A stretch of DNA of 37,144 nt. It comes from Elusimicrobiaceae bacterium. GTDB lineage: Bacteria; Elusimicrobiota; Elusimicrobia; Elusimicrobiales; Elusimicrobiaceae. A model generated the notes under the pieces. It saw nothing but the letters and a program-made list of their open reading frames with translations. It searched no databases and was not told the origin of the DNA. The stretch covers positions 1 to 37,144 of the forward strand of contig JAFUJU010000038.1 in NCBI GenBank assembly GCA_017468055.1, given 5' to 3'. Shown piece by piece: positions 4,902 to 37,083 of the stretch (positions are counted from its first letter, which is position 1; every line of letters starts with the position of its first letter). A program made the translations under genes and the position numbers.

Positions 4902-4927
4902 ATTGTAACAAAAAAAAAACGTGTCAA
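4902..4927 (-). promoter_or_regulatory. pilin 1 promoter with T-tract spacer
   Basis: Read on the minus strand this is TTGACA-N14-TACAAT; the spacer contains a run of 10 T. The same arrangement precedes every pilin gene in the window. The 14-bp spacer is the shortest of the set and below the 16-18 bp optimum of sigma-70 promoters, which predicts the weakest expression of the family. Confidence 0.85.
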
Positions 4928-5060
4928 GAGGAATTTCACTTTTTCCCAAAAAGCCCTTTTCTGTAAAAAATCTTCATAATAAAAAATTTTATTTATCCTT
5001 TAGCAAACTGATTAGGCAGAAAAGCCCATATAAATGATAAAATAATATAAGAATTAGATT

Positions 5061-5217
5061 TTATACCGATTTTTTGGTACCCCGTCACGGGGTTTGTCCG
5101 GCTTAGGCCGGCTGATCGCAGCCAAAAAATGGTATCGTTTTGCCGCTTCCTAACGGGGCGGCAGGCGATGTCCATTTTGGGAATGCGATCCTCAAACTTG
5201 GGCGTCGCCTTTTTTTA
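5061..5217 (+). ncRNA. structured leader RNA candidate with terminator, unknown class
   Basis: A 14-bp helix with one bulged G (5063-5077 with 5122-5135) encloses two small hairpins, CCCCG-tca-CGGGG (5080-5092) and CCGGC-ttag-GCCGG (5098-5111). A third hairpin TGCCGC/GCGGCA (5141-5163) comes next. The element ends in a long hairpin, 5163-5173 with 5200-5210, containing an inner stem and followed by seven T. The terminator stops 29 bases before the start codon of a small gene, the layout of a riboswitch or attenuator; a free-standing small RNA is equally possible. The last base of the third hairpin overlaps the terminator arm. I do not recognise conserved bases of any riboswitch I know. No clear promoter is seen in 4928-5060, which is AT-rich and otherwise empty. 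Confidence 0.55.
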
Positions 5218-5245
5218 TGAGGCACGCCCCTCACAAGGACATTTT

Positions 5246-5443
5246 ATGCCCACACCGCCGCCGGAAATTACACAAGAAGAATTGGAAGATTTGTATGCAA
5301 CCATTTGCCGCGCGCGTGAGAATTTTTTGGAAGCAAAAGAAAAATGCTTTCGCCTGTTTTGTATAGCCAAACGGCGGGAAAACTATTTCAAAAGTAAAGC
5401 CAAAATCCAAAAAATACTTCAAAAAAATTCTTCCGCTAAATAA
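5246..5443 (+). CDS. small hypothetical basic helical protein
   Basis: The 65-residue product starts MPTPPPEITQEEL and continues as a predicted amphipathic helix rich in Lys, Arg and Glu with three cysteines; no signal peptide or membrane segment is visible. AAGGA at 5235-5239, 6 bases before the ATG at 5246, decides the start; the frame is open upstream to 5129 but that part would run through the structured RNA and its terminator. It is a single gene bounded by the leader RNA and a terminator at 5448-5472. I do not recognise a family. Its control by the upstream RNA is the only clue to its role. Confidence 0.6.
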   Translation: MPTPPPEITQEELEDLYATICRARENFLEAKEKCFRLFCIAKRRENYFKSKAKIQKILQKNSSAK

Positions 5444-5447
5444 TTTT

Positions 5448-5472
5448 ACCGCTCCTAAGGGGGCGGTTTTTT
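5448..5472 (+). terminator. terminator after small hypothetical gene
   Basis: ACCGCTCC pairs with GGGGCGGT (one G-T pair) around a tiny loop and runs into TTTTTT. It separates the small gene from miaA. Confidence 0.88.
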
Positions 5473-5501
5473 ATTATGAGCTAATTTACTAAAATATAAA
5501 G

Positions 5502-6440
5502 ATGAAACACATTGTGATAGTAGGCCCGACCGCCAGCGGAAAGACGGAATTGGCCCTTGCTTTAGCGCGCAAATTAGATACCCAAATCATCTCTGCCGAT
5601 TCTCGGCAGGTATTTCGCGCGCTTACCGTCGGAACGGCCAAGCCACAGGGACATTGGCAAGACGGAAAATATTGGGTAGAGGGCGTACCCTATCACCTCG
5701 TAGATTTTTTAGACCCGGCCGAAAGTTTTGACGTTGCCTCTTTTTGCACCCGTGCCGGACAACTGACAGCAAACGCTGAAAAGCCTTTTGTTTTTGCCGG
5801 CGGAACGGGAATGTATATTCATGCGCATTTTGTAGGGTTGGACCCTCTCCCCCCCTCTGATCCGGCCTTGCGTGCAGAACTTACGGCTTTTGCTACCGAA
5901 AAAGGCAAAGAGGCCCTACACGCACGCTTAACAGAGCTAGACCCCATTTCAGCCGAGCAAATTCCCGTAGGCAATATTCAGCGTGTCATGCGTGCAGTGG
6001 AGATATGCCTGCTCGCGGGGCGGGCAGCATCTTCCCTTAAATCCGGCGGATTTTTTGGCCAATTTCCCGAAGAAAATGCACTGCTCGTATATTTAAACTG
6101 GGATAAAGAACTTTTAAATAAACGTATAGAAAAGCGCACCCAAACTATGTTAGACCCTATGGCTGAGGAAACGCGTGCTTTGCTTAGTAGCGGAGCAAGT
6201 GAAGATTGCAACGGACTGAAAAGTCTGGGCTACCCACAAATATTGCAGTGGCTTAAAGGCGAAAAAAGCAAAGAAGAAACCTTGGAAAAAATTATCACCC
6301 TTACCCGCCAATATGCCAAGCGCCAACGCACATGGTTTAACAGGTATAAAAATGCCCTGCGCTTGGATTTTTCTGCCGCGCAGGACTTTGATGTGGAAAA
6401 AATTACGGATAGAATTTTAAATTATTGCGGTAATTTGTAG
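5502..6440 (+). CDS. miaA: tRNA dimethylallyltransferase MiaA
   Basis: MiaA transfers the dimethylallyl group to N6 of A37 in tRNA; MiaB (2629-3858) then methylthiolates it. The P-loop GPTASGKTELA is at residues 8-18, followed by the family block ISADSRQVFRALTVGTAKP and the catalytic region DPAESFDVASF; the C-terminal TRQYAKRQRTWF is typical. Length 312 is normal. No Shine-Dalgarno precedes the ATG; instead TAAAAT at 5490-5495 ends six bases before it, so the transcript may be leaderless. Transcription may continue towards hflX, but a 245-base gap with other signals separates them. Confidence 0.95.
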   Translation: MKHIVIVGPTASGKTELALALARKLDTQIISADSRQVFRALTVGTAKPQGHWQDGKYWVEGVPYHLVDFLDPAESFDVASFCTRAGQLTANAEKPFVFAGGTGMYIHAHFVGLDPLPPSDPALRAELTAFATEKGKEALHARLTELDPISAEQIPVGNIQRVMRAVEICLLAGRAASSLKSGGFFGQFPEENALLVYLNWDKELLNKRIEKRTQTMLDPMAEETRALLSSGASEDCNGLKSLGYPQILQWLKGEKSKEETLEKIITLTRQYAKRQRTWFNRYKNALRLDFSAAQDFDVEKITDRILNYCGNL

Positions 6441-6597
6441 TAAGTTAAGAGTTCAATTTCACTAGAAAAAGTTCCCCCTAAACTTTTACAAACTTTATGT
6501 CCAAGCTCATTTTTTGCCCCACATAAAACATCTCCGCTATATGGCGTTAAGACCTAGTAAATGACCTTTAAGATTTTGGTCTGTATATGACTTCAAA
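6441..6597 (-). pseudogene. orphan pilin-type leader without a pilin
   Basis: Downstream (minus strand) of a pilin-type promoter at 6598-6624 lies a leader that resembles the leader of pilin 3: both have CAGACC, then TCTTAAAG, then a GGTCTTAA or GGCCTTAA segment able to fold back on the first block, and then a GGAG-containing ribosome site. No prepilin follows. The only reading frames are tiny, for example 17 codons starting MFYVGQKMS, and they run towards the end of miaA. I read it as a pilin cassette that has lost its gene, though a small RNA or a short peptide gene is possible. Confidence 0.5.
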
Positions 6598-6624
6598 ATT
6601 GTAGCAAAAAAAAAAACAAGTCAA
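6598..6624 (-). promoter_or_regulatory. orphan pilin-type promoter
   Basis: On the minus strand the sequence is TTGACT-N15-TACAAT with an 11-T tract in the spacer, as at the four pilin genes. It points towards the 3' end of miaA, where no pilin gene exists. Confidence 0.75.
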
Positions 6625-6685
6625 GGAAAACTTTACTTTTTTATAACAACCAACAAGTCAAACAATAATTTATACAATAACCTAT

Positions 6686-7930
6686 ATGGAAAAAGTGATT
6701 TTGATTGGTGCCAGTCTAAAAACGGATTTTACCAATTCCCATTCTTTACAGGAGTTGGCGCGCCTTGCCGAAACCGCCGGCGGGCAGGTGTGTAAGCTGT
6801 ACTGCGTACGTGTACAAAGTTTCAACGCTGCCACCTTAATTGGCACAGGTAAACTGCAAGAAATCGCCGCCGAATGTGAAGCTCAACAAATCAGCTCCGT
6901 TATCTTTGACGAAGAAATTACCCCCGCCCAGCAGAAAAATTTAGAAGATATTTTACCTGCCAAAGTAATAGACCGCACCCGTCTGATTTTGGATATTTTC
7001 GCCCAACGAGCCCGCACCCAAGAAGGCAAACTGCAAGTGGAGTTGGCACAGCTAAACTACTTGCTTCCTCGCCTGAGCGGAAAAGGAACGGCCATGATGC
7101 AACAAAAAGGCGGCATTGGCATGCGCGGACCGGGAGAACGTAAGTTGGAGTATGACCGCCGCCGTCTGCGCGCGCGGATTTCCCGTTTGGAACAAGAAAT
7201 AGAACAAGTAAAAAAAGAACGTTCCTTACGTCGTGAAAAACGCCAACGTGTACCTCTACCGCAAATTGCTTTAATCGGCTACACCAATGCCGGCAAAAGT
7301 ACCCTACTTAATGCTTTAACCCAAGAACAGGCCGTATATGCAGATGATAAGCTTTTTGCCACATTAGACCCTACTACCCGCCGCGTCCCCATGAAAGGGG
7401 GCGGACAGATGCTTTTCACCGATACGGTGGGATTTATTCAAAAACTCCCCCACTCCTTGGTATCCGCTTTTCGGGCCACTTTAGAGGAAACAGCTTTTGC
7501 CGACGTACTGTTGCATGTACATGATGCCGCTAGCGAACAACGGGAAGAACAAAGCCACACCGTACGCCAAATCCTGACCGATTTGCATGCTTCCCACCTG
7601 CCGGTCATTGATGTATTTAACAAAACGGATTTGATACCTGCGCCGCGTTTGCAAGCTTTAAAAAAAGCCTACCCGCAAGCCCTCTTTATCAGTGCGCAAA
7701 ATGCCAAAGGCCTAGACACCCTGCTCAAAGCCGTAGAAAAAGCTCTGAAAATAAAATGGAAAGTCCGCCCTTTGCTACTGAGTGCAAAACAGGCGGACCT
7801 TATCGGACAAATCTACACACGCTCTTTGGTGCTATCTACCACCGCCACCAATGACGGCGGCCTCAAACTCAAAATCATGGCTACCGACGGTAATTACGCG
7901 GAACTGCTCAAAAAAACTACCTTGCCATAG
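6686..7930 (+). CDS. hflX: ribosome-associated GTPase HflX
   Basis: HflX is a cytosolic GTPase that binds the 50S subunit and splits stalled ribosomes. The glycine-rich N-terminal domain includes GTGKLQEI and the family signature GGIGMRGPGERKLE (around residues 140-155), followed by a coiled coil. The G domain has G1 GYTNAGKST, G2 within TLDPTTRR, G3 DTVGF and G4 NKTD. Length 414 is normal. No ribosome site is seen before the ATG, but TACAAT at 6673-6678 ends 7 bases upstream, so it is probably leaderless. The stop overlaps the 3' end of the convergent protease gene by 14 bases, and no terminator lies between them. Confidence 0.95.
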   Translation: MEKVILIGASLKTDFTNSHSLQELARLAETAGGQVCKLYCVRVQSFNAATLIGTGKLQEIAAECEAQQISSVIFDEEITPAQQKNLEDILPAKVIDRTRLILDIFAQRARTQEGKLQVELAQLNYLLPRLSGKGTAMMQQKGGIGMRGPGERKLEYDRRRLRARISRLEQEIEQVKKERSLRREKRQRVPLPQIALIGYTNAGKSTLLNALTQEQAVYADDKLFATLDPTTRRVPMKGGGQMLFTDTVGFIQKLPHSLVSAFRATLEETAFADVLLHVHDAASEQREEQSHTVRQILTDLHASHLPVIDVFNKTDLIPAPRLQALKKAYPQALFISAQNAKGLDTLLKAVEKALKIKWKVRPLLLSAKQADLIGQIYTRSLVLSTTATNDGGLKLKIMATDGNYAELLKKTTLP

Positions 7931-8921
7931 ATACATCGGCAATATCGTCTGCCGACATATCCCCAAACACTTCTTCCGGCTTGGCATGGGTCAGCTCCGC
8001 TCTTTGGCCGGAAATGCCCACAAAGCGAGGGCTAGAGCCGGACTCATGAAAAGAGGCTATCGTCGCACGAACAAAATTTACATTACTGCGGCTAAACGGA
8101 GTAAAGAGAAAATAATCCGAAGAATAAGGAATAGAACCAATCGGTTTATCGCTGGCATCATACAAAGTCAGCTCTGTCTCCCCGCCTATTTTACCCGATA
8201 CAACGCCTACCACATCTCCCCCCGGCACTACCACACCGCCGCCGCTCATGCCATGCACTACCCCAAAATTGCTTCCCATGAAATGGCGCAACTCGGTAAA
8301 GTAATAAAAATCGTCGGTAAAACTTTCTTGATAATAAATGCCGTCCGGTTGCAAATTGGCAACTGCCAAAGGATCTAAAATATGACGTGCGGCATTAATG
8401 CTCAAGAGTTTGGGACGAGAGGAACCTAATTCTTCCCATTGATAACGTTGGTCAGAATTTTCGGAAAGTTTTAATTTTTGCAAAAACACTTCCTCTTCTA
8501 TATAATCTTTTTCTTTGGCATCATAAAAAGAATATTGCACTTCTTTGGGGTCGAAACGAATCAGCGCCACATCATGGCGTACACTTTTAGCGTTTCGGGG
8601 TATATATTCACGAGGAACAAAGACTCTGGCATCAGAAGCTGTGTGTTGCACACGGGCAGATGCTTGCAAGTTTCCTTGAATAAGATCCAACGTTAAAGTA
8701 CATTCTTTGTTGCAAATGGGAGATACACAGTGGGCTGCCGTCAAATACCATTTGGGCAAAATACGCGTTGCATGACATTTGCTGTTTTCTCTTGAGTTTT
8801 GTACCCACAATAGGCTTTGATGTACAAAATCCTCCGCCTGAAAAGCAGATTGCCGTTCTTCGGCCGAGGCAGAAAAAGCACAACACAATACTCCCAGTAA
8901 TAAAAATTTTTTCAGCTTCAT
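7917..8921 (-). CDS. secreted trypsin-like serine protease (S1 family)
   Basis: The 334-residue protein has an N-terminal signal peptide (MKLKKFLLLGVLCC, cleavage likely after SASA near residue 20). The catalytic triad of the chymotrypsin family is readable: His in LTAAHC (about residue 64), Asp in RHDVALI (about 117) and Ser in GMSGGGVV (about 225), where the usual GDSGGP is GMSGGG. It should act in the periplasm or outside the cell. GGAGG lies upstream of the ATG at a suitable distance. The gene is divergent from plsY and convergent with hflX, with which it shares 14 bases. Other exported proteins are encoded at 32125-33490. The substrate is unknown. Confidence 0.85.
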   Translation of the reverse strand: MKLKKFLLLGVLCCAFSASAEERQSAFQAEDFVHQSLLWVQNSRENSKCHATRILPKWYLTAAHCVSPICNKECTLTLDLIQGNLQASARVQHTASDARVFVPREYIPRNAKSVRHDVALIRFDPKEVQYSFYDAKEKDYIEEEVFLQKLKLSENSDQRYQWEELGSSRPKLLSINAARHILDPLAVANLQPDGIYYQESFTDDFYYFTELRHFMGSNFGVVHGMSGGGVVVPGGDVVGVVSGKIGGETELTLYDASDKPIGSIPYSSDYFLFTPFSRSNVNFVRATIASFHESGSSPRFVGISGQRAELTHAKPEEVFGDMSADDIADVSMAR

Positions 8922-9002
8922 TTTTTAAATCCTCCCACACCCACATCTTTTTTAGTCTATATAAAATAGCTCCCATTGCCAAGGGGGTTTGCATTTTAGG
9001 GC

Positions 9003-9030
9003 TTGCCCTGCGGTCCAAACTTTATATAAT
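9003..9030 (+). promoter_or_regulatory. plsY promoter, apparently leaderless
   Basis: TTGCCC (9003-9008), 16 bases, TATAAT (9025-9030). The plsY ATG at 9037 lies 7 bases after the -10 box, where transcription should begin, and no Shine-Dalgarno is present. Confidence 0.7.
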
Positions 9031-9036
9031 AAATAT

Positions 9037-9663
9037 ATGATGATAAAAGTACTTTTGCTCGCGTTGTTTAGTTATCTACTCGGGGCCGTACCTACCGGTT
9101 ACCTGATTGCCCGCAAAGCTATGGGCATTGATATCCGTCAGCACGGTTCCGGTAACCCCGGCGCAGCTAACGTCTACCGCACGGTGGGCAAATGGGCCGG
9201 CATTACTACTTTCCTCATTGACGGGTTGAAGGGCTTTATCCCCGTTTCTTTGGCTCTGCACGTTTTCCCCGGAGAGTATTGGCAAGCTATTTTGTGTGGT
9301 ACAATTGCCATTTTGGGGCATATGTGGACCATTTACCTCAAATTCCGTGGCGGAAAGGGCGTGGCTACCTCTGCCGGTGTATTTGCGGCATTGCTTCCGA
9401 TTCCTACTGCTCTGGCTTTTGCTTCTTTTGTGATTTGTGTAGCCTTGTGGGGACGTATTTCCATTGGTTCCATTATGGCATGTTTGGTCTTGCCTATTAC
9501 CAGCTTTTTTATCGGGAACCATTCCATGTCCGTAAATGTAATGGCTACGGCAATCGGTCTTTTGGTCATTTATAAACACGTACCCAATATCAAACGTCTG
9601 TTGGCTAAAAAAGAATTGGCCTTTGAAGACGGATCTAAAAAAAGAAAAAATGAACATAAATAA
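9037..9663 (+). CDS. plsY: glycerol-3-phosphate acyltransferase PlsY
   Basis: PlsY is an inner-membrane enzyme that acylates glycerol 3-phosphate from acyl-phosphate, the first step of phospholipid synthesis. Its signatures are present: SYLLGAVPTGYLIAR, the loop GSGNPGAANVYR, and FRGGKGVATSAGVF, with several hydrophobic segments. The product is 208 residues, normal for the family. I place the start at the ATG at 9037 (a second ATG follows directly) because a promoter ends just before it; the upstream in-frame ATG at 8989 would lie ahead of that promoter. The lysine-rich end overlaps the start of gpsA by 14 bases, so the two genes, which make and consume glycerol 3-phosphate, are coupled. Confidence 0.95.
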   Translation: MMIKVLLLALFSYLLGAVPTGYLIARKAMGIDIRQHGSGNPGAANVYRTVGKWAGITTFLIDGLKGFIPVSLALHVFPGEYWQAILCGTIAILGHMWTIYLKFRGGKGVATSAGVFAALLPIPTALAFASFVICVALWGRISIGSIMACLVLPITSFFIGNHSMSVNVMATAIGLLVIYKHVPNIKRLLAKKELAFEDGSKKRKNEHK

Positions 9664-10654
9664 AATTACCGTTTTCGGTGCCGGTATTTGGGGCAGTGTG
9701 ATTGCCCAACATTTGGCAAAACGCGGCTATAAAGTAAGCCTGTGGGAGTACAATGAGCAACTGCTTAATGTACTCAAAACCATTGGTCGCCACCCCAATA
9801 TCCCCAATTTTAAAATTCACGATAATATTCGCCTAACCGGCGACGTAGCAGAAGCCGTGCAAGGTACGGATATGATTGTGTTTGTTATTTCTTCCAAAGC
9901 CATTCGCGCCTTCTGCCGCGAACAATTAAAACCCCTGCTTAACGGAAAAGTATTGCCCGTTATCAGCGCGTCCAAAGGCATTGAAGAAAACTCTTTTAAA
10001 ACCATTTGTGAAATTATAGAAGAAGAAATCCCCCAACTCAAAGATCATGTGCTGGCATTTACCGGCCCGAGCTTTGCCTTGGAAGTTGCCCAAAACGTAC
10101 CTACCAAAATTATGCTGGCCGGCAAAGATGCCGTGCTGGTAGATGAAATCCGCCAAGTGTTTGATGCGGACCCGATTATCATTGTACCGGGGTCAGACCG
10201 TCGCGGAGCCGAATATGGTGGTGCTATTAAAAACGTGTTAGCCATAGGCTGTGGCGTGATTGACGGCATCGGGGACGGAGCCAATTCCAAAGCGGCTTTG
10301 ATCACACAAGCTTTGGAAGAAATGAATGATATTATCGTCAGTCAAGGCGGTCAACCGGGTACCGTGTACAGTTTGGCCGGATTCGGTGATGCCATTTTAA
10401 CAGGTATGTCCGCCATTTCACGTAACCGCCGTTTAGGTGAAAAATTAGGCTCCGGCCTTTCTTTGGAAGAAGCCAAAAAAGAAGTGGGCACCATTGCCGA
10501 GGGTGTGAACTCCGTGCAAAGCGTGCATGATATTGCCTGTAAAAACAATTTACAAACGCCGATCATTGATGCCATTTGGCAAATTGTCTGCCAAGGAAAA
10601 AGACCGCATGTATTGTTGCAAGCTATGGGCTTTGTCAACCGCGGGGATAAATAA
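9650..10654 (+). CDS. gpsA: glycerol-3-phosphate dehydrogenase [NAD(P)+]
   Basis: GpsA reduces dihydroxyacetone phosphate to sn-glycerol 3-phosphate, the substrate of PlsY encoded directly upstream. The NAD(P)-binding FGAGIWGSVIA is near the N-terminus, followed by SASKGIEE and FTGPSFALEVA; the catalytic lysine lies in the GAIKNVLAIGCG region, and the C-terminal domain has NSKAALITQALEEM. The start at 9650 (MNINKITVFG) is within the end of plsY and is preceded by an A-rich stretch rather than a clear ribosome site, consistent with translational coupling. Length 334 is normal. An HU-family gene follows after 11 bases. Confidence 0.96.
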   Translation: MNINKITVFGAGIWGSVIAQHLAKRGYKVSLWEYNEQLLNVLKTIGRHPNIPNFKIHDNIRLTGDVAEAVQGTDMIVFVISSKAIRAFCREQLKPLLNGKVLPVISASKGIEENSFKTICEIIEEEIPQLKDHVLAFTGPSFALEVAQNVPTKIMLAGKDAVLVDEIRQVFDADPIIIVPGSDRRGAEYGGAIKNVLAIGCGVIDGIGDGANSKAALITQALEEMNDIIVSQGGQPGTVYSLAGFGDAILTGMSAISRNRRLGEKLGSGLSLEEAKKEVGTIAEGVNSVQSVHDIACKNNLQTPIIDAIWQIVCQGKRPHVLLQAMGFVNRGDK

Positions 10655-10665
10655 GGATTTGCTTT

Positions 10666-10957: not shown

Positions 10958-10980
10958 ATAGTTTTTATAAAACTTATAAT

Positions 10981-18955: not shown

Positions 18956-19414
18956 TTAAAAATCTCGACAAGTGTAATGGTTCCCACCCGTTCCAACATC
19001 CGGATTTTGACAAGGCATCATTTGTTTGCAATCCTCCGACAAACACTCTACTGTTTTGCGGGGAGGTGGTCCGAAAAAAACATTATACTGCATCTTAATT
19101 TCACTCATGCTCCCTTTACCATTAAAACCTATCCAAACACTTCCAACATCTCCCTGTCCGCCACCTGTGGTCACGGTCCAATTTTTTATTTCATTGGGAA
19201 TATCAATGCTTAAATCTTCTAATTGATCTGTCAATTTACCCGTTTCCAATAAATAAATATCTTGTGCATCAAAAAATGCCTTTCCCAATGTCCATGTTTC
19301 AGCCGCCCTTGCTTTATTGACAGCTTTTGTATATTGCGGTAAGGCAACAGCAGACAAAATGCCGATTATAAGCACCACCACTAATAGTTCAATCAACGTA
19401 AAACCTTTTTTCAT
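18956..19414 (-). CDS. type IV pilin-like prepilin (pilin 2)
   Basis: A 152-residue prepilin with KKGFTLIELLVVV at the start, Gly-Phe processing site, Glu5 of the mature protein, and helix end SAVALPQYTKAVNKAR. The globular part has the pilin 1-like LETGKLTDQLEDLSIDI segment, then a Gly-rich stretch, and four cysteines near the C-terminus (VECLSEDCKQMMPC and YTCRDF). AGGAGGAG just before the ATG at 19414 sets the start. The leader region is clearly related to that of pilin 4. It has its own promoter (19488-19515) and terminator and stands alone between ileS and the nucleoside phosphorylase gene. Pilus subunit or pseudopilin; the role is open. Confidence 0.92.
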   Translation of the reverse strand: MKKGFTLIELLVVVLIIGILSAVALPQYTKAVNKARAAETWTLGKAFFDAQDIYLLETGKLTDQLEDLSIDIPNEIKNWTVTTGGGQGDVGSVWIGFNGKGSMSEIKMQYNVFFGPPPRKTVECLSEDCKQMMPCQNPDVGTGGNHYTCRDF

Positions 19415-19487: not shown

Positions 19488-19515
19488 ATTGTAGCAAAAA
19501 AAAAAAACGTGTCAA
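19488..19515 (-). promoter_or_regulatory. pilin 2 promoter with T-tract spacer
   Basis: Minus strand TTGACA-N16-TACAAT with a 12-T tract in the spacer. Upstream of the -35 it shares the block GCGCTATCTCTTGACA (one change) with pilin 3 and with the region before lon. The spacer length is near optimal. Confidence 0.9.
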
Positions 19516-27892: not shown

Positions 27893-27896
27893 ACAT

Positions 27897-28349
27897 TTAT
27901 TGAGCCATTACAGAGTAAAAAGAACGCTCTGATTCATGGTGAACTTCATTTCCAGAAATAGATTTACAAAGATAATTTTGCAATTCATCATCTCTGGTAG
28001 CTACACAAAACATAGCGAATTTATGAGTTCCGAAATAATTATTGATTTCCAAACGTGTTCCGCTATGAGGCTCTTGGTATCCGAGATACCCTGTGCTCCC
28101 TTCTTCCGAGTATTCCCTCCATTTATCACCTACTTCAATATCTAATGCTGCTAAATCCTGCGTAAACCCTTCTCCGGTTGCCATATCATACCTTTTTTGC
28201 GCTTCCAACAAGGCACGTCCCTGCACCACACCTTCCATTAAACGGGCTTTTGCAACCGCCTTGGTATATTGCGGAAGTGCCACCGCAGACAAAATACCGA
28301 TGATTAGCACGACCACTAATAGTTCTATCAAAGTAAAACCTTTCTTCAT
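27897..28349 (-). CDS. type IV pilin-like prepilin (pilin 3)
   Basis: A 150-residue prepilin with KKGFTLIELLVVV, the Gly-Phe processing site and helix end SAVALPQYTKAVAKAR. The globular part has MATGEGFTQDLAALDIEV, matching the same place in the other pilins, then a unique region with one Cys pair (FCVATRDDELQNYLC). AAGGAG before the ATG at 28349 gives the start. The gene is single, with its own promoter at 28423-28449, and ends against the RDD gene's terminator. Its leader can form a hairpin (AGACCCAA with TTGGGCCT) similar to that in the orphan leader at 6441-6597. Function as pilus subunit or pseudopilin is inferred. Confidence 0.92.
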   Translation of the reverse strand: MKKGFTLIELLVVVLIIGILSAVALPQYTKAVAKARLMEGVVQGRALLEAQKRYDMATGEGFTQDLAALDIEVGDKWREYSEEGSTGYLGYQEPHSGTRLEINNYFGTHKFAMFCVATRDDELQNYLCKSISGNEVHHESERSFYSVMAQ

Positions 28350-28422: not shown

Positions 28423-28449
28423 ATTGTAGCAAAAAAAAAAACGTGTCAA
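28423..28449 (-). promoter_or_regulatory. pilin 3 promoter with T-tract spacer
   Basis: Minus strand TTGACA-N15-TACAAT; the spacer has an 11-T tract. The 16-base block TGTCAAGAGGTAGCGC (plus strand, including the -35) is identical to one upstream of lon at 31222. Confidence 0.88.
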
Positions 28450-31182: not shown

Positions 31183-31202
31183 GACATTTAAAAGAGTGCT
31201 AA
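31176..31202 (-). promoter_or_regulatory. CIRCE-like operator upstream of lon
   Basis: Plus strand CTAGCAAGA, nine bases, GAGTGCTAA. The right half is a perfect CIRCE half-site, the left half matches 5 of 9, and the 9-base spacing is exact (14 of 18 consensus positions). CIRCE is the binding site of the heat-shock repressor HrcA, so heat control of lon is suggested. No hrcA gene is in the window. Confidence 0.6.
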
Positions 31203-31251
31203 TTTTAGAATAAAAAAGACATGTCAAGAGGTAGCGCATTTTACCGGCAGA

Positions 31252-31290
31252 TAAAAAAACACAGGAGAAAACGAAATGTTTTCTCCTGTG
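31252..31290 (-). terminator. terminator of clpP
   Basis: CACAGGAGAAAAC pairs perfectly with GTTTTCTCCTGTG around 5 bases; on the minus strand it is followed by seven T. So clpP and lon are separate transcription units. Confidence 0.93.
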
Positions 31291-31320
31291 CTATACCAAA
31301 CAGCCAAAAACTATAAAAAG

Positions 31321-31908
31321 CTATTTTTTCAGCTCTAATACCTCATCAATAATGCCGTACTCTTTGGCTTCTTGAGCGGAGAGATAATAGTTTCTCTCGC
31401 TGTCTTGGCGGATTTTTTCTTTGGGTTGGCCCGTATGTTTGGCCAAAATATCCAACAGATGCTCTTTATTATCGTGCAATTCGCGCGCTTCAATTTCAAT
31501 ATCGGTCACTTGCCCCGAAATACCACCGCCCCAAATTAACGGTTGGTGTATCATAATGCGGCTGTGAGGCAAAGCATAGCGGCGGCCTTTAGATCCGGCA
31601 GCTAACAACACCGCACCAAAACTCATGGCTTGGCCCATACAAATAGTAGTAATAGGGGCTTTAATAAATTGCATCGTATCATAGATAGCCAAGCCCGCCG
31701 TTACCATACCACCGGGGGAATTAATATAAAGGTTAATTTCCCGCTGTGAATCTTCCGCATCCAAATACAACAGTTGCGCAATAATCATATTCGCGCTGGC
31801 GGTGTCCACTTCCCCTTCGCGTCCGCCTACAAAAATAATGCGGTCTTTGAGCAGACGCGAAAAAATATCATAGCCGACATTCTTTTCAATAATAGTAGGT
31901 ATAATCAT
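31321..31908 (-). CDS. clpP: ATP-dependent Clp protease proteolytic subunit
   Basis: ClpP forms the barrel-shaped peptidase that works with ClpX or ClpA. The 195-residue protein has the catalytic Ser in [14 protein letters not shown] (about residue 97), His in SRIMIHQPL (about 122) and Asp in the [15 protein letters not shown] region's preceding DSER segment (about 170). [19 protein letters not shown] is characteristic. The ATG at 31908 follows GGAG (in AGGGAGAAAAAT); the upstream TTG in the same frame lacks support. A -10 TATAAT lies at 31942-31947. No clpX is adjacent; lon lies downstream behind a terminator. Confidence 0.96.
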
Positions 31909-31941
31909 ATTTTTCTCCCTCAAAAAATTAGTCTTTTTTTT

Positions 31942-31947
31942 ATTATA
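31942..31947 (-). promoter_or_regulatory. -10 box of clpP
   Basis: Perfect TATAAT on the minus strand, 33 bases before the clpP start. No good -35 is visible at 16-18 bases, so an activator or another determinant may be used. Confidence 0.55.
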
Positions 31948-31989
31948 CGATAATTATTACTTTTTCGCATGAGGGATTCTCCGACGAAA

Positions 31990-32010
31990 GACCTATAAAA
32001 AATATAGGTC
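31990..32010 (+). promoter_or_regulatory. inverted repeat (operator-like) upstream of first exported-protein gene
   Basis: GACCTATA, five bases, TATAGGTC: a perfect 8-bp inverted repeat. Its centre is 66 bp upstream of the likely -10 box TATAAA (32066-32071) of the gene at 32125. A half-site TAGGTC follows at 32029-32034. The same arrangement precedes the next gene. Confidence 0.7.
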
Positions 32011-32124
32011 CTATTTCCTACTTCAAAATAGGTCTATTTTTTTCTTTTATCTCCGACGATATTTTTATAAAATTAAAAAGTACCCAAAAACAAAACAACT
32101 AAAAAAGGATGGAGAAGTAATACA

Positions 32125-32685
32125 ATGAACATGAAAAAAATTATCTTAAACACGCTCTGCGTATTAGCCGTTACGGTCGCCGCGCAGCATGCGTATGCTC
32201 AAAGCCCTAGCATGGAAGCTAAATTCTTAGGGGACGCTTGGAGCAGAACCTTCACCACCGGTGATAATAAGAAAAAAAGCCAACCGGCCCCTGCCGACGC
32301 TGGCAAACCGGCAGAACAACCGGCTACCGAGCAAGCAGAACAACCGGCCTCTAACTCAGCTTATTTAAATGCCGGACCCAAAATGAAAATCGTCAACGGT
32401 GCAGAATACAATGCCCACTTCGTCGGAGAGGTATACAATTGTATCGGCGATGCCTGCAAAACAGCTTGGGATGCTGTTAAGAATTTCTTTGTAGAAGGTG
32501 CTAAAAACATTCCACAAGGATACGTACCCGGACGTGAAGGTGCTATCATGCGCAGCGGAGAGAATTTTTGGAAGAATATAAAAGACAAAGAGACTACCGC
32601 CAAGTCAGACTCTTTGGCAGCCGCTTTAGATCGCGCCAATGTAAAAGCCGCCGCCTCACAATACGAAGCTTCCCAACAAAAATAA
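32125..32685 (+). CDS. exported protein of unknown function
   Basis: The 186-residue protein has a clear Sec signal peptide (MNMKKIILNTLCVLAV, cleavage likely after AYA at about residue 25). The mature part begins with MEAKFLGDAWSRTF, then a low-complexity Pro/Ala/Glu/Gln linker (residues about 52-75) and a C-terminal domain with two cysteines (YNCIGDACKTAWDAVKNF), probably forming a disulfide in the periplasm. I do not recognise the family. AAGGATGGAG precedes the ATG; a second ATG is two codons on. A terminator follows. The upstream inverted repeat is shared with the next gene, suggesting co-regulation of two secreted proteins. Confidence 0.8.
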   Translation: MNMKKIILNTLCVLAVTVAAQHAYAQSPSMEAKFLGDAWSRTFTTGDNKKKSQPAPADAGKPAEQPATEQAEQPASNSAYLNAGPKMKIVNGAEYNAHFVGEVYNCIGDACKTAWDAVKNFFVEGAKNIPQGYVPGREGAIMRSGENFWKNIKDKETTAKSDSLAAALDRANVKAAASQYEASQQK

Positions 32686-32691
32686 ATCTTC

Positions 32692-32717
32692 AAGCCCCGC
32701 TTGTGCGGGGCTTTTTC
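32692..32717 (+). terminator. terminator after first exported-protein gene
   Basis: AAGCCCCGC pairs with GCGGGGCTT around TTGT, followed by TTT. Confidence 0.92.
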
Positions 32718-32730
32718 AAAAGTCTATAAA

Positions 32731-32751
32731 GACCTATATAGGATATAGGCC
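32731..32751 (+). promoter_or_regulatory. inverted repeat (operator-like) upstream of second exported-protein gene
   Basis: GACCTATA, five bases, TATAGGCC: 15 of 16 arm positions are the same as in the repeat at 31990-32010. Its centre is again 66 bp upstream of the -10 box. A half-site TAGGTC follows at 32769-32774. Confidence 0.7.
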
Positions 32752-32784
32752 TAAATTATTTTTATTTTTAGGTCCAAAGACCCT

Positions 32785-32812
32785 TTGAAAGACTCTCTAA
32801 AGTTTTTATAGT
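32785..32812 (+). promoter_or_regulatory. promoter of second exported-protein gene
   Basis: TTGAAA (32785-32790), 16 bases, TATAGT (32807-32812). The gene starts at 32849 with GGAG upstream. Confidence 0.75.
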
Positions 32813-32848
32813 AAAGTAAGAAACAATTTTATTTTTGGAGAAAAACAG

Positions 32849-33490
32849 ATGACAATCAAAAGAATACTTCTTTTAACAGCTTTCATTTCCGTAGCTGTCA
32901 TTGCCCAAGCGGAAGAAAAACCTCAACTTTCAGCCTCTTTTCAAAAAGCCTTAGAAGGTGGTAATGCACGCGCTGCCCAAGTCCACCGTCAAGAAAATCT
33001 GGTTTCTTGCCCCGAATGCGGACGCAAAGTAGAAGCGGGCTCCACCTGCAGCAACCACCACAAAAAAATTACCGTAACGGGAGATGTGGAAATGGTTTCT
33101 TGTTCTGAGTGTGGACGTAAGGTAATTGCCGGAACGGTGTGCCACCACGGACACAAACCCACGTTGGTCGAAGCTCCTTCTGCCCATCATCACACCGCCA
33201 ACTGTCAAAGCTCTTGCACATGCAGTGAATGTACTGAAGAAAGAACCAACACCTCTGCCGACAAACCCGCAGCTCAAGAAAATGCAGACGATAGCGTTGT
33301 TCATACCTGTTCTTTTTGCGGAGAACCGATTTTAGAGGAAAACCACTCTTGCTCCAGCCAGCACAATCCGTTTGGTATTTGTACCTATAAAGATATGAAC
33401 ACGGGCAGACCTCTTTATCAAGGCGACTATTCCAACCGCTTTAAAGACAGATTCTATGTTCCTTACGAATCTCAAATAGTCAAAAAATAA
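32849..33490 (+). CDS. exported protein with repeated zinc-ribbon-like motifs
   Basis: The 213-residue protein has a Sec signal peptide (MTIKRILLLTAFISV, cleavage after AQA at residue 21). The mature part carries three similar knuckles: CPECGRKVEAGSTC (Cys54/57/67), CSECGRKVIAGTVC (Cys85/88/98) with following His, and CSFCGEPILEENHSC (Cys154/157/168). Between the second and third is a dense SSCTCSECTEE segment. Such CxxCG pairs normally form cytosolic zinc ribbons; in an exported protein they could hold metal or form disulfides. I know no family that fits. GGAG precedes the ATG. It shares regulatory sequence with the gene before it and ends in a terminator. Confidence 0.8.
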   Translation: MTIKRILLLTAFISVAVIAQAEEKPQLSASFQKALEGGNARAAQVHRQENLVSCPECGRKVEAGSTCSNHHKKITVTGDVEMVSCSECGRKVIAGTVCHHGHKPTLVEAPSAHHHTANCQSSCTCSECTEERTNTSADKPAAQENADDSVVHTCSFCGEPILEENHSCSSQHNPFGICTYKDMNTGRPLYQGDYSNRFKDRFYVPYESQIVKK

Positions 33491-33494
33491 TTTT

Positions 33495-33522
33495 AACCCC
33501 CGGTTTTTACCGGGGGTTTTTT
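33495..33522 (+). terminator. terminator after zinc-ribbon protein gene
   Basis: AACCCCCGGT pairs with ACCGGGGGTT around TTTT, then TTTT. A second hairpin, AAAACCCC with GGGGTTTT, lies at 33533-33557. Both overlap the end of the minus-strand gene at 33507-33821. Confidence 0.9.
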
Positions 33523-33821
33523 ACACTTAGCGAAAACCCCGCCCGTGTGGGGTTTTTCTGTTTCTCTGCCTTATATTCCCGCCACAAGCAATATTGCTCT
33601 TGGCGGAGCCGTTCTATCTCATCAGCCAAAAACACGCTATTTTCCTGAGCAAAAAAAGCATTATAAACCGAGATTAAACCCTGTAGCAGCCTCCCCCCTT
33701 TGACAGAAAACAAAATCCCCTCTCGGGCCAACAGGAGTGCCTTTTCCAAAGAAGCCCGGTAAAAAATGATGTTTTCTAAGTCCGTTTTATCCCAATTAGG
33801 CATAAGGCCGTAATGAGCCAT
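33507..33821 (-). CDS. small hypothetical protein
   Basis: The 104-residue product starts MAHYGLMPNWDKTDL and is largely helical and charged, with a likely amphipathic or coiled segment (SVFLADEIERLRQEQ). No signal peptide or known motif is seen. The start is the ATG at 33821; the ribosome site is weak. Its last ten codons read through the terminator hairpin of the convergent exported-protein gene, so that hairpin is both coding and terminating, and part of the tail may be a read-through accident. The tiny membrane ORF 13 bases upstream may be co-transcribed. Confidence 0.5.
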   Translation of the reverse strand: MAHYGLMPNWDKTDLENIIFYRASLEKALLLAREGILFSVKGGRLLQGLISVYNAFFAQENSVFLADEIERLRQEQYCLWREYKAEKQKNPTRAGFSLSVKNPR

Positions 33822-33834
33822 CAATCAGTTTGTC

Positions 33835-33921
33835 TTACTGCATTTGTTGCCATTCTTGCACAATGGCCCAAATCAGAAAAAAAAGCAAAAGAACCTGCAG
33901 AATACGCGAAATGAATAACAT
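33835..33921 (-). CDS. possible 28-residue single-pass membrane peptide
   Basis: ATG at 33921 opens a 28-codon frame: MLFISRILQVLLLFFLIWAI followed by a short polar tail rich in Gln. That is one hydrophobic helix with a positive charge near the N-terminus. It ends 13 bases before the next minus-strand ORF. No good Shine-Dalgarno is present, so the call rests on composition and position only. Toxin-like or regulatory membrane peptides look like this, but so do chance frames. Confidence 0.3.
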   Translation of the reverse strand: MLFISRILQVLLLFFLIWAIVQEWQQMQ

Positions 33922-33935
33922 ATACCCGGATAACA

Positions 33936-33948
33936 CTAACAGAGTTAG
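33936..33948. repeat. short inverted repeat CTAAC-N3-GTTAG
   Basis: CTAAC aga GTTAG. A related but longer repeat with different spacing is at 34024-34039. The stretch between, 33950-34020, holds a further imperfect stem (AAAAAGAG with CTCTTTTT) and no gene. Confidence 0.4.
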
Positions 33949-33990
33949 CAAAGTTTTTTCACTTTTCAAAAAGAGAGATGTAAGGTAATA

Positions 33991-34020
33991 TTGGCGTACT
34001 TTAATCTCTTTTTTTATAAC
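33991..34020 (+). promoter_or_regulatory. possible promoter upstream of structured RNA and repressor gene
   Basis: TTGGCG (33991-33996), 18 bases, TATAAC (34015-34020). An alternative extended -10, TGgTAGAAT, lies at 34047-34055. Both are close to the inverted repeat at 34024-34039. Confidence 0.4.
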
Positions 34021-34023
34021 TTT

Positions 34024-34039
34024 ACTAACTCAAGTTAGT
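34024..34039. promoter_or_regulatory. operator-like inverted repeat ACTAACT-CA-AGTTAGT
   Basis: Seven-base arms around CA. It covers the expected start of transcription from the promoter at 33991-34020 and lies about 260 bp before a LexA/CI-like repressor gene, so it may be that repressor's own site. Followed by TTTTT it could instead act as a weak terminator. Confidence 0.45.
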
Positions 34040-34057
34040 TTTTATTTGGTAGAATAA

Positions 34058-34170
34058 GACCGCATAGATTCGGAAAAATTATGCGGTCGGGACCTAGGGA
34101 AAACAACGTATCACCAAGCTATGATACCAGAGCGGAGCCCCGCTCTTTTCCCTCAAACACTGTAAGTGTT
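34058..34170 (+). ncRNA. structured RNA candidate (hairpin plus three-way junction), unknown class
   Basis: A 9-bp hairpin (GACCGCATA with TATGCGGTC) is followed by a junction: GGGAAAA pairs with TTTTCCC and encloses GTATCA/TGATAC and GAGCGG/CCGCTC stems. Then AAACACT-gta-AGTGTTT runs into T. GGAC and GTCC segments outside the junction can pair too. It lies between the putative promoter and the repressor gene at 34299, so it may be a leader or a separate small RNA. I recognise no known family. The following 34171-34285 is AT-rich with no gene. Confidence 0.45.
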
Positions 34171-34298
34171 TTTAGTCCGAAGAAAGACGAAAGACTTAAG
34201 CTATTTGTAGTATATATTGTTAGCATAGTAAGTTTTTATCATATTTGTCAAGTTTTTCTTTTTTCTTCTTTTTTCCGTTATATGTATAGGAGAAATAT

Positions 34299-34940
34299 AT
34301 GAATAAATTTGAAAAGCAATTAGAAAAATGGAATAATGGAGTACTAAGAGGTGCGCAAGCAAAGTTAGCAAAAACATTGGGCGTTTCCACTGCCACCACC
34401 GCCTTATGGGCTACCGGCAAACGCCGCCCTTCCAAAGGTTATGCCTCCCAAATAGCCGCTTTGTTTAAAATGGACATATATAACGTTTTCAAACTTTTTG
34501 AAAAACACAGTACTGTTTACCCTACCCCTACACCGACAGCCCAACATTTTTTATGCGAAAGAGAAAACACTTCCTCTTTTCACGGAGAAGAAACACTGGA
34601 AGAATATGCTTTACCCCAAAGTAATAGTGTTCGCTTGCCGTTTTTTAATCAAGTTCCGGCCCATTTTCCGCAATACAACGAAGATGAAGTACTGGAATGG
34701 TGGGGCGTACCGCGCAGATATGCCTGCGGAGCTAAATACATAGTTCCCTCTCTTTCCATTGGTCTGCCCACTACAGACAGTGACGACTTATGCTTTATAA
34801 AGCCCGCCACGGAAAAAGCAGATAAAAACCTAATTTTATACAAATTAGAAGACGGCTCTTATACGTGCAAAAAGCCCACTCCCGTTTCAAAAGCAAAGGT
34901 GGCAGGCATCGTGGTCCGACGGATTGCTACCCCCAAATAA
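34299..34940 (+). CDS. LexA/CI-like transcriptional repressor (HTH plus S24 domain)
   Basis: The 213-residue protein has an N-terminal helix-turn-helix of Cro/CI type (about residues 20-60, AKLAKTLGVSTATTALWATG) and a C-terminal domain with the outline of peptidase S24. The hinge VRLPFFNQVPAHFP matches the self-cleavage region, but the Ala-Gly bond is Ala-His. SLSIGLPTTDSDDL stands where GDSMxPxxxDGD is expected, keeping a Ser, and GSYTCKKP holds the Lys position. It may therefore be a LexA-like or phage-type repressor with altered or lost autocleavage. AGGAG precedes the ATG at 34299. No phage genes are near. The inverted repeats upstream are candidate operators. Confidence 0.75.
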   Translation: MNKFEKQLEKWNNGVLRGAQAKLAKTLGVSTATTALWATGKRRPSKGYASQIAALFKMDIYNVFKLFEKHSTVYPTPTPTAQHFLCERENTSSFHGEETLEEYALPQSNSVRLPFFNQVPAHFPQYNEDEVLEWWGVPRRYACGAKYIVPSLSIGLPTTDSDDLCFIKPATEKADKNLILYKLEDGSYTCKKPTPVSKAKVAGIVVRRIATPK

Positions 34941-34955
34941 TCTTTTTTCAGCCCC

Positions 34956-34983
34956 TTGTTTTTTAAAGAAAAACACCTATACT
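34956..34983 (+). promoter_or_regulatory. promoter of large structured RNA
   Basis: TTGTTT (34956-34961), 16 bases, TATACT (34978-34983). It begins right after the repressor gene and points to the RNA that ends at 35383. Confidence 0.6.
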
Positions 34984-34989
34984 ATGAAT

Positions 34990-35383
34990 ATCCTCAAAGA
35001 AGGATTGGGGAATGTAGGACAGAAAATTGCAAACCGCACTAGCTTTACCCAGTGATGTAAGGCGGTAAGGAATGCACCAACTGATCGGGTCGTGCCAGTG
35101 GAGAGCGCGAAGAGCGCAGAAGCGTAAGTACACGGCTTTGAAGCAGAAAAAATGTTCTTTTATTATGCGAGGTATGGCTAAAACAGAATGGCCGGTTCAC
35201 GCGCTCGGGTCCCGCTCAAGAGGGTCGGGGTGCCAGAGATTTGGGCCGGAAGTATTAGCCCCTTTGCCAAAAGAACATGTCAACTGTTCTGCGGCCCTAA
35301 TACCTATTCCAGAGGAAGGAAAAAAAATGACAAAGTCGGCTTAGGGTCCTCCGCAGGTTAATGATGCGGAGGGCTCTTTTTTG
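34990..35383 (+). ncRNA. large structured RNA, about 390 nt, possibly a divergent RNase P RNA
   Basis: The segment between a sigma-70 promoter and a strong terminator has no convincing gene. It folds into many stems: ATCCT/AGGAT at the 5' end, GCTTTAC/GTAAGGC, GCGC-gaaga-GCGC, a 10-bp long-range stem (35152-35161 with 35269-35278), and GTATTAG/CTAATAC (35252-35258 with 35297-35303) that crosses it, giving a possible pseudoknot. Several pieces, in order, resemble RNase P RNA: GACAGAAAATTGCAAACCGC, GCGGTAAGG, GCGAAGAGCGC, and near the 3' end GACAAAGTCGGCTTAG, like the universal ACAGAAnnCGGCTTA. Against this, I find no standard 5' CR-I (GAGGAAAGTCC) able to form helix P4. Identity is therefore open. 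Confidence 0.5.
35345..35383 (+). terminator. terminator of the large RNA
   Basis: CCTCCGCA pairs with TGCGGAGG around 9 bases, followed by GCTC and TTTTTT. It ends 28 bases before the yggS promoter. Confidence 0.92.
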
Positions 35384-35410
35384 TCTTTTCGTCTAGAGAT
35401 TTTTTAAAAA

Positions 35411-35439
35411 TTGTAGATTTAAGTAAATTTTGATATAAT
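35411..35439 (+). promoter_or_regulatory. yggS promoter
   Basis: TTGTAG (35411-35416), 17 bases, TATAAT (35434-35439), with TG one base before the -10. The ATG at 35440 touches the -10 box, so it cannot be the start used from this promoter; the ATG at 35455 can. Confidence 0.8.
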
Positions 35440-35454
35440 ATGTCAAGGGTTTTT

Positions 35455-36165
35455 ATGAACGCAGCGGAAAAAGTTACTCAAAATTTGTTACAAGTACAGA
35501 CCGCTATTAAGACAGCTTGCCAAGTAAGCGGCCAAACACAAGCTAATGTGCATTTACTTGCCGTTACTAAGTACGCCAATGACGAAGATGTTTTAGCTTT
35601 ATTGGAAACAGGCCAAATTGCCCACATAGGCGAAAGCCGCGTGCAACAAGCCGTCATCCGTTGGAAAAACCCAACTTTTGCTAAATATCCGGTTTATAAA
35701 CATTTTATCGGACATTTGCAAAAAAATAAAACCGCTCAAGCGGCAGAACTCTTTGACTTTATTGATTCCATAGACGATATATCCACCGCACAAGCGCTCA
35801 ACCGCCAAGCGGAAAAATTAGGCAAAAGGCTTTTCGTCATGTTGCAAATCAAGCTAACCCAGCGGGAAACGCAATCCGGTATTTCTTTGCAGGAAGCCCC
35901 ACAGTTACTCAGCCAAATAAGAGAACTGGCTTACTTGATACCGTGCGGATACATGGCCATTGCGCCGCAAACGGAGAATGTACAGGAGTTGCGCCCCTTA
36001 TTTAAACAGGTCAAAATGGCCTTTGACAGAGATTTTCCGCTCACGCTTCAGCACCGTTATTTATCGCTGGGAATGAGCAACGATTTTAAAACAGCCGTGG
36101 AAGAAGGGTCCACATTACCAAGAATTGGCAGTATGCTGTTTGCCGAACACAGGGAGGAAGTATGA
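35455..36165 (+). CDS. YggS family pyridoxal-phosphate homeostasis protein
   Basis: The 236-residue protein has the fold-type III PLP-binding pattern of YggS/PLPBP: Lys in LLAVTKYAND binds PLP, then HFIGHLQKNK, and the C-terminal phosphate region LSLGMSNDFKTAVEEGST with RIGSMLF. These proteins buffer cellular PLP and have no known catalytic activity. The start at 35455 is chosen because a strong promoter ends at 35439. A DUF167 gene follows with an ATGA overlap; YggS and YggU-type genes are also neighbours in E. coli. Confidence 0.92.
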   Translation: MNAAEKVTQNLLQVQTAIKTACQVSGQTQANVHLLAVTKYANDEDVLALLETGQIAHIGESRVQQAVIRWKNPTFAKYPVYKHFIGHLQKNKTAQAAELFDFIDSIDDISTAQALNRQAEKLGKRLFVMLQIKLTQRETQSGISLQEAPQLLSQIRELAYLIPCGYMAIAPQTENVQELRPLFKQVKMAFDRDFPLTLQHRYLSLGMSNDFKTAVEEGSTLPRIGSMLFAEHREEV

Positions 36166-36431
36166 TCATAAAGGTACGCGTCATTCCTACTACAACCGGA
36201 CGCAATGAAATTATCAGCCGTATCGGCAGCGTGCTGCGCATGAAAATCAAAAATAAAAAGGTGGACGATGATTTGGCTAATGATATCATGAAAACTTTCT
36301 TGGCTGATTTCTTTGCCGTAAAAGAGAACCAAATTATTATCTTAAAAGGTGCTAAAGGCAAAGAAAAAACGGTGGAAGTGCGCGATAAAAGCGAAGAAGA
36401 GCTCCGCCAAATCATGGATTCTATCCCTTAA
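36162..36431 (+). CDS. DUF167 / UPF0235 (YggU-like) protein
   Basis: The 89-residue protein has the small alpha/beta outline of UPF0235: MIIKVRVIPTTTGRNEI at the start (VxVxPxAxxN pattern), a central ANDIMKTFLADFF helix (the family's AN..l...LA), and EVRDKSEEELRQIM at the end. Its function is unknown. It overlaps yggS by 4 bases (ATGA) and is followed by a terminator shared with pilin 4. Confidence 0.88.
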   Translation: MIIKVRVIPTTTGRNEIISRIGSVLRMKIKNKKVDDDLANDIMKTFLADFFAVKENQIIILKGAKGKEKTVEVRDKSEEELRQIMDSIP

Positions 36432-36454
36432 TCCCAAACTATCCCCAACAAAAC

Positions 36455-36485
36455 ACAGCCCGCCAAAAGCGGGCTGTTCTCTTTT
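36455..36485 (+). terminator. terminator between DUF167 gene and pilin 4
   Basis: ACAGCCCGC pairs with GCGGGCTGT around 5 bases, with TCTCTTTT after it on the plus strand and TGTTTTGTT on the minus strand, serving both convergent genes. Confidence 0.9.
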
Positions 36486-36499
36486 ACTAGTCTTAGATT

Positions 36500-36982
36500 T
36501 TAGAGCTCATATCTGCGCCAGTTATATTTAGTGGTATCAAAATACTTTCCTCCCATGCTTTTACACACTTTATCTGAAACATCATGTCCTTCATAGGATT
36601 GACAAAATATTTTTCCTGCATACCCAGTATGAGCCAAGCCTAATGTATAAGTTAGTGAATGCGTGCCCTTATCTTTAACAACTCCATAGACTACCGGATT
36701 AGCATTTTCATAATAGGTATTGCCACAACTTAAAACATTTCCCGCCTCACTTTCGCTACACCCTGCTATTTCCACAGCGGCATCAGAAAATTTAGTGGGA
36801 TATTCCCCGTTAGCCATATAGTATACTTCAAACAAATCCCGAATCGTTTTTACGTTGCTTTGTACTGTAGCAAAACGACTTTTCATCACTGCCACCTGAT
36901 ATTGCGGTAATGCCATAGAAGACAAAATACCGATGATTAAAACAACGACCAACAGTTCTATCAAAGTAAAACCTTTTTTCAT
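36500..36982 (-). CDS. type IV pilin-like prepilin (pilin 4)
   Basis: A 160-residue prepilin with KKGFTLIELLVVV, Gly-Phe processing site, and helix end SSMALPQYQVAVMKSR, the most divergent helix of the four. The globular part has YYMANGEYPTKFSDAAVEI, close to classical minor pilin/pseudopilin sequences, and four cysteines in two pairs (GCSESEAGNVLSC and FCQSYEGHDVSDKVC). AGGAGGAG before the ATG at 36982 sets the start. Its leader is clearly homologous to that of pilin 2. It is a single gene with its own promoter. The C-terminal domain is the one most like the pilin fragment at 10981-11271. Confidence 0.92.
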   Translation of the reverse strand: MKKGFTLIELLVVVLIIGILSSMALPQYQVAVMKSRFATVQSNVKTIRDLFEVYYMANGEYPTKFSDAAVEIAGCSESEAGNVLSCGNTYYENANPVVYGVVKDKGTHSLTYTLGLAHTGYAGKIFCQSYEGHDVSDKVCKSMGGKYFDTTKYNWRRYEL

Positions 36983-37055
36983 TTTTCTCCTCCTGTAAGG
37001 CCGATACAACGCGCTAAACGACATTATAAAAGCCACAAACTGCACCGACACCGAA

Positions 37056-37083
37056 ATTGTAGCAAAAAAAAAAAACGTGTCAA
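37056..37083 (-). promoter_or_regulatory. pilin 4 promoter with T-tract spacer
   Basis: Minus strand TTGACA-N16-TACAAT with a 12-T tract in the spacer, as at pilin 2. Confidence 0.9.

Follow-up and report, generated by a model that had tools for sequence, protein, structure and literature searches.

Homopolymeric T-tracts mark the pilin promoters of an Elusimicrobiaceae bacterium and may tune pilin expression by slippage

The stretch of DNA analysed here, referred to as the window, comprises all 37,144 nucleotides of contig JAFUJU010000038.1 from an Elusimicrobiaceae bacterium (assembly GCA_017468055.1). It carries pilin genes whose promoters contain a homopolymeric run of T, the T-tract, between the -35 and -10 boxes. 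The source genome, G000, is assembled to 1,318,465 bp in 89 contigs at 86.56% completeness, and the window corresponds to its contig C28. Searching both strands of the window for runs of nine or more T yielded exactly five, all on the minus strand and all forming promoter spacers. This recovers every one of the pilin-type promoters listed by a first-pass annotation of the same sequence, with TTGAC(A/T) and TACAAT boxes, T-tracts of 10, 11, 12, 11 and 12 bases, and spacers of 14, 15, 16, 15 and 16 bp. The relevant features are as follows.

4384-4863, minus strand: prepilin gene, 159 aa, profile match to N_methyl (PF07963)
4880-4909, minus strand: imperfect palindrome across the -10 box, short-leader class, below the 8-bp arm score
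4902-4927, minus strand: promoter TTGACA-CG-T10-GT-TACAAT, spacer 14, T10 at 4910-4919
6422-6597, minus strand: pilin relic recognised by eye, leader sequence followed by a fragment that looks like a pilin C-terminus, without an intact open reading frame (ORF)
6598-6624, minus strand: promoter TTGACT-TG-T11-GC-TACAAT, spacer 15, T11 at 6606-6616
18956-19414, minus strand: prepilin gene, 152 aa, starting 81 nt past the tract
19488-19515, minus strand: promoter TTGACA-CG-T12-GC-TACAAT, spacer 16, T12 at 19496-19507
27897-28349, minus strand: prepilin gene, 150 aa, starting 81 nt past the tract
28423-28449, minus strand: promoter TTGACA-CG-T11-GC-TACAAT, spacer 15, T11 at 28431-28441
36500-36982, minus strand: prepilin gene, 160 aa, starting 81 nt past the tract
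37056-37083, minus strand: promoter TTGACA-CG-T12-GC-TACAAT, spacer 16, T12 at 37064-37075

All four window pilins tested contain PF07963, the N-terminal methylation and prepilin cleavage motif of type IV pilin-like prepilins. The earlier claim that such a promoter stands before each pilin gene holds for these four. The fifth promoter, at 6598-6624, and the sequence after it look like the relic of an internal deletion, since only a leader and a short C-terminus-like piece follow, without an intact pilin.

The T-tract is a mark of pilin promoters rather than a genome-wide promoter habit. A search of G000 for TTGAC-N3-T7-N(0,8)-TACAAT returned 77 exact matches, dispersed across many contigs rather than arrayed as integron cassettes would be, while the reversed pattern returned none. 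In the 750,735 bp (57%) of the genome that was read as stretches, loci and the window, runs of T fall from 586 (T7) and 102 (T8) to a single T9 and a single T10, then rise to 11 (T11), 55 (T12) and 4 (T13); long runs are therefore almost absent outside pilin promoters. Among the 72 runs of nine or more T, 69 lie in promoter context by rule and two by inspection, having an altered -35 or -10 box; one T9 lies elsewhere. Prepilin starts follow 61 of the 72 by rule, at a distance of 81 nt in 43 cases. Case-by-case inspection of the remaining 11 identified seven pilins (two recognised from the leader peptide alone, as the contig ends there), one run cut by a contig end and one before a lipoprotein-like gene; the last two are the relic promoter of the window and the T9 outside any promoter context. 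In total, pilins lie downstream of 68 of the 72 runs. Chance and a general promoter habit are ruled out by the empty reversed control and the scarcity of long T-runs elsewhere. The first-pass annotation had named, as one result that would count against it, a like A/T tract in the spacers of most promoters; instead, the long runs are nearly confined to pilin promoters. Likewise, 400 kb read from the relative G007 contained only two such runs, both in pilin promoters. A 42-residue pilin N-terminal query matched 108 places in G000 at E<=1. The lipoprotein-like gene is preceded by a T11 promoter at G000:C38:50749-50775 (locus L120).

The element recurs among relatives. Within the family, 65 of 90 genomes contained TTGA-N4-T9 (57 of the 66 in the genus and 8 of the 18 in a sister genus), compared with 14 matches to the reversed control over the 90 genomes. 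When named genomes were scanned for the pattern, the matches listed comprised 80 loci, of which 58 were from Elusimicrobi- genomes, mostly gut metagenome-assembled genomes, and 22 from unrelated bacteria. The pilin query gave at least 13 matches at E<=1e-8 in all 66 genus genomes, at most 111 being scored per genome out of up to 249 first-look candidates. Detailed comparisons were made with G024, G021, G016, G026, G038 and the close pair G007/G061. Promoter cores vary between species and are near-uniform within one: that of G016 is TTGACCCG-T12-CT, that of G026 is TTGACTTG-T12-GG, and a TTGACAAATCG form occurs in G024. Alternative -10 boxes (TACACT, TAAATT, TACCCT) also occur. Many pilin genes were reportedly noted in the genome paper of Elusimicrobium minutum. 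Pilin and competence genes have been reported in Endomicrobium, and the part of that account available makes no mention of T-tract promoters, slots or replication orientation (PMC8809381). A literature search by title found nothing on T-tract promoters of Elusimicrobia pilins, which is not a claim that they are absent from print.

The tract is pure in G000 and variable in length. None of the 77 tracts is interrupted internally, and 17 depart from T12 (eleven T11, five T13 and one T10). Allowing up to three mismatches to the T12 promoter added nine sites, among them C15:29474, where a base at the edge of the tract is substituted; the sole site with three mismatches (C61:5005), which lies on the opposite strand with a poor -35 box and an interrupted tract, was not counted as a promoter. 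Length differs in two of the three closest paralog pairs of G000, which otherwise show 3 to 5 differences per 200 nt. Between G007 and G061, with flanks 93-98% identical, four paired tracts read T12/T12, T12/T10, T12/T13 and T13/T12, the T13 of the last having arisen via a G-to-T change. Tracts of T9 to T14 were seen in chromosomal slots shared between genomes, and tracts of T7-T8 in other species.

These slots often hold different pilins in different genomes. Counts cover only tract loci of G000 having a matched pair of flanks in the relative. In the fetched parts of G024, which shares 87% identity with G000 over 2.4 kb of putative lon, 28 loci had both flanks together: 11 contained a pilin, 13 were empty (gap <400 bp) and four were ambiguous. 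As a control, a pilin lay between matched G024 flanks at 5 of 119 non-pilin positions. Seven slots could be compared with G021 (three occupied, two empty, two ambiguous). The tract was kept in all 11 occupied G024 slots, at a different length in seven; of the three in G021, two had it at unchanged length and the third lacked it. The variable pilin tails were compared in ten occupied G024 slots, excluding a 41-aa fragment in the eleventh: eight pairs had identities of 0.11-0.29 and the other two reached 0.47 and 0.56, where random comparisons have a median of 0.18 and a 95% point of 0.30. In the close pair G007/G061, the tails of L353/L372 and L355/L374 do not align, and the same pilin is kept at L345/L346 and L349/L356. 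Of 15 automatic comparisons with empty sites, few showed a clean insertion; examples are C27:20248 and C6:15359, the latter a 648-bp unit absent from G024 with its break between a terminator stem and the T-run of that terminator. As clean insertions were so few, no claim of a target-site duplication rule is made.

The arrangement was also compared with pilE/pilS of Neisseria gonorrhoeae, where a conserved pilin N-terminus is joined to exchanged variable tails and silent copies feed one expressed locus. In such a system most copies lack a promoter and start; here, in contrast, cassettes carry their own, with 61 pilin starts assigned to a tract promoter by rule in the sequence read. The arrangement consequently does not match a silent-cassette system of this type.

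All tract promoters that could be classified are oriented with replication. The leading strand was assigned by GC skew, with contig C38 split at 40 kb, where its skew changes sign; contigs with <19 kb read were excluded, as was C89, which has two tracts and no clear skew. Rightward from about 40.0 kb on C38 (L118-L121), dnaA, dnaN, gyrB and gyrA were recognised by eye, with parA/parB to the left. Tract promoters lay on the leading strand in 60 of 60 cases, versus 345 of 598 ORFs of at least 120 aa (binomial figure 5e-15, on the assumption that the loci are independent). On G024:C8, four runs of nine or more T on the other strand are also picked up by a loose rule, none of them upstream of its listed pilins.

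In promoters with short leaders, the ten bases past the tract take in most of the -10 box and have a complementary segment some 14 to 52 bases further downstream. The arms covary: their own partners surpassed 1000 of 1000 permutations in G000 (n=15, the window promoter at 4902-4927 included), G024 (n=17) and G007 with G061 (n=20), in sets that retain a few entries evidently not pilin promoters. Perfect or near-perfect arms (score >=8) were found at 9/84 promoters in G000, 8/36 in G024, 1/8 in G021, 0/17 in G016, 9/11 in G007 and 8/16 in G061. Both arms have changed together between L355 and L374. Because the -10 box should not be transcribed, we infer that the palindrome likelier acts at the DNA level than as an RNA hairpin. 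A conserved hairpin within the 81-nt leader was also considered and set aside: for 36 sequences RNAalifold returned nothing beyond a 4-bp helix without variation, and a helix named by hand was weak (0.805 paired versus 0.774 permuted in 41 sequences, with 11 of 2000 permutations reaching 0.805). An Rfam scan of the window gave no matches at the gathering threshold. In many promoters of G007 and G061 (L345-L374) about six bases separate the -10 box from the start codon, which suggests that many of their pilin transcripts are leaderless.

On the evidence of its purity and recurrence, the T-tract is taken to be a selected element. Our leading reading, which we hold to be about evenly poised between right and wrong, is that slippage tunes the expression of each pilin. 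Two points place it ahead of the other readings: the tract hardly varies except in length, and the vlp genes described below offer a precedent. Each pilin gene forms a compact cassette with its own sigma70-like promoter, a leader, a prepilin gene and, where inspected, a terminator, set in a leading-strand chromosomal slot. The tract would act as a simple-sequence contingency element: slippage during replication would add or remove one T, alter the geometry of the promoter and thereby reset the output of that single pilin, with a mosaic pilin surface as the outcome. Two hallmarks of contingency loci were found, namely a slippage-prone repeat inside the promoter and a repeat length that varies between homologous loci, as compared across species and paralogs. 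The cassettes and the tract, with its pilin specificity, its purity in G000 and its length variation between loci and species, are seen directly; that slippage within a strain changes the length, that this alters transcription and that a mosaic surface results is inferred. As sigma70 promoters perform best with a 17 bp spacing, output is predicted to follow the order T13 >= T12 >> T11 > T10. The combinatorial pilin coat envisaged in the first-pass annotation is plausible, and cassette exchange could also produce one.

Under the leading reading, the Elusimicrobiaceae tracts would be a variant of known promoter-homopolymer systems. porA of Neisseria meningitidis, the example given in the first-pass annotation, has a promoter homopolymer at a single gene. 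The closest known system is the vlp family of Mycoplasma hyorhinis, in which the length of a homopolymer in the promoter region switches each gene ON or OFF (PMC10502178). The two are alike in having a surface-protein family of singly transcribed genes, each with its own promoter-region homopolymer. They differ in that vlp tracts are poly-A and their switching is demonstrated (PMC10502178), whereas the tracts described here are T on the coding strand, belong to 77 dispersed promoters of pilins and are only proposed to switch.

Several observations weigh against slippage tuning. T12 is strongly modal in G000 (60/77), as a fixed element would predict, and is also modal among the sites listed for relatives with a pattern that itself demands seven T: 10/22 in G016, 9/15 in G024, and, where it is again strongly so, 36/44 in G026 (53 sites in total) and 10/11 in G038 (41 in total). 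In G024 the mode is T12 whether two or five nucleotides separate TTGACN from the tract, in a loosely matched set. A pure spacing model is therefore insufficient, since the mode is unmoved with the -35 box 3 bp further away, and the idea that a 16-bp spacing is the selected property is weakened. Tract purity is not universal, as one interrupted tract each occurs among the listed sites of G016, G026 and G038, and three more in the fetched part of G016. Six genomes (G004, G011, G029, G032, G034, G037) have from 64 to at least 111 pilin matches yet only 0-2 tract matches; a large pilin set can therefore occur in a genome that lacks the tract promoter. The two cassettes at most shared slots differ throughout, and a difference in tract length there may therefore arrive with the cassette rather than by slippage. 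The MutS_I mismatch-repair domain was found in all 66 genus genomes, which also rules out lost mismatch repair as the cause of tract variation. Finally, an A5/A6 tract upstream of the -10 box of Neisseria nspA sets its expression, and no phase variation of that tract was detected (PMC6389960). A promoter homopolymer can thus set expression without detectable switching; nspA resembles the present case in having a homopolymer upstream of the -10 box, and is unlike it in being a single gene rather than 77 promoters (PMC6389960). The proposal in the first-pass annotation that the tract is a phase-variation device accordingly stands in part: pilin-promoter specificity and length variation among paralogs and species favour it, and three points do not, namely the T12 mode, its persistence at both -35 distances in G024, and MutS being present.

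The same three points make a fixed-length regulon element the main rival, one that we regard as serious but clearly less probable than an even chance. On this account T12 has a structural role beside the -10 box or binds a factor there, in either case serving common pilin expression, and length changes are tolerated noise without adaptive switching. The mode persists across G000, G016, G024, G026 and G038 despite their differing promoter cores, and the like promoter of the non-pilin gene at C38:50757 suggests a shared regulon. Such an element does not readily account for the 17 tracts of other lengths, the range of T9 to T14 in shared slots, the T7-T8 tracts of other species or the near-identical paralogs that differ in tract length.

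An unlikely but more encompassing proposal is a two-layer surface-diversity system, in which up to about a hundred replication-aligned slots, fixed in position on the chromosome, would swap cassettes between slots and species, and T12 and the palindrome, on single-stranded lagging-template DNA, would serve as both slippage switch and exchange junction. We think it quite improbable that the tract and palindrome are mainly a recombination or breakpoint site for cassette swaps, with promoter effects secondary. L355 and L374 share 300 bp of identical upstream sequence that stops at the tract, beyond which their cassettes diverge, as expected of a junction; the slots found vacant or with an unrelated pilin in a relative, the covarying palindrome and the uniform orientation to replication fit as well. 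A ComEC homolog (PF03772) is present, making transformation a possible route. However, identity between L353 and L372 continues through the tract into the N-terminal codons. The Y1/HUH transposase family PF01797, found in 13 of the 66 genus genomes, had no match in G000 (an incomplete assembly), G007, G016, G021, G024 or G061, other recombinases not having been searched for; a resident HUH transposase of the IS200/IS605 or RAYT type is hence unsupported as the cassette mover. At the pilin start of L372 (G061:C6), an A5-to-A4 change relative to L353 breaks the frame just past the start, and reflects either coding-tract variation or an assembly error.

That the tracts reflect chance in A/T-rich promoters or homopolymer errors is extremely improbable: the assembly is fragmented and incomplete and several of its contigs terminate at tract-promoter repeats, but the reversed control was empty, long T-runs are nearly absent elsewhere and the pattern recurs across most of the genus. 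At the end of the window, 37022-37144 overlaps the first 123 bases of G000:C56 with two mismatches, one in the -35 box (TTGACA versus TTTACA); either the two contigs are neighbours that derive from variant strains, or the loci are distinct and nearly identical.

If the tracts do switch, no larger set of promoters that can each be tuned separately is known to us, with 77 in a 1.3-Mb assembly, a comparison that is not a literature count. Were the two-layer system true, a single mechanism coupled to replication would unite the orientation of the promoters with their tract and palindrome. Even without switching, the unrelated pilins in shared slots, the uniform orientation to replication and the covariation of the -10 palindrome are noteworthy in this gut lineage, which has almost no genetics.
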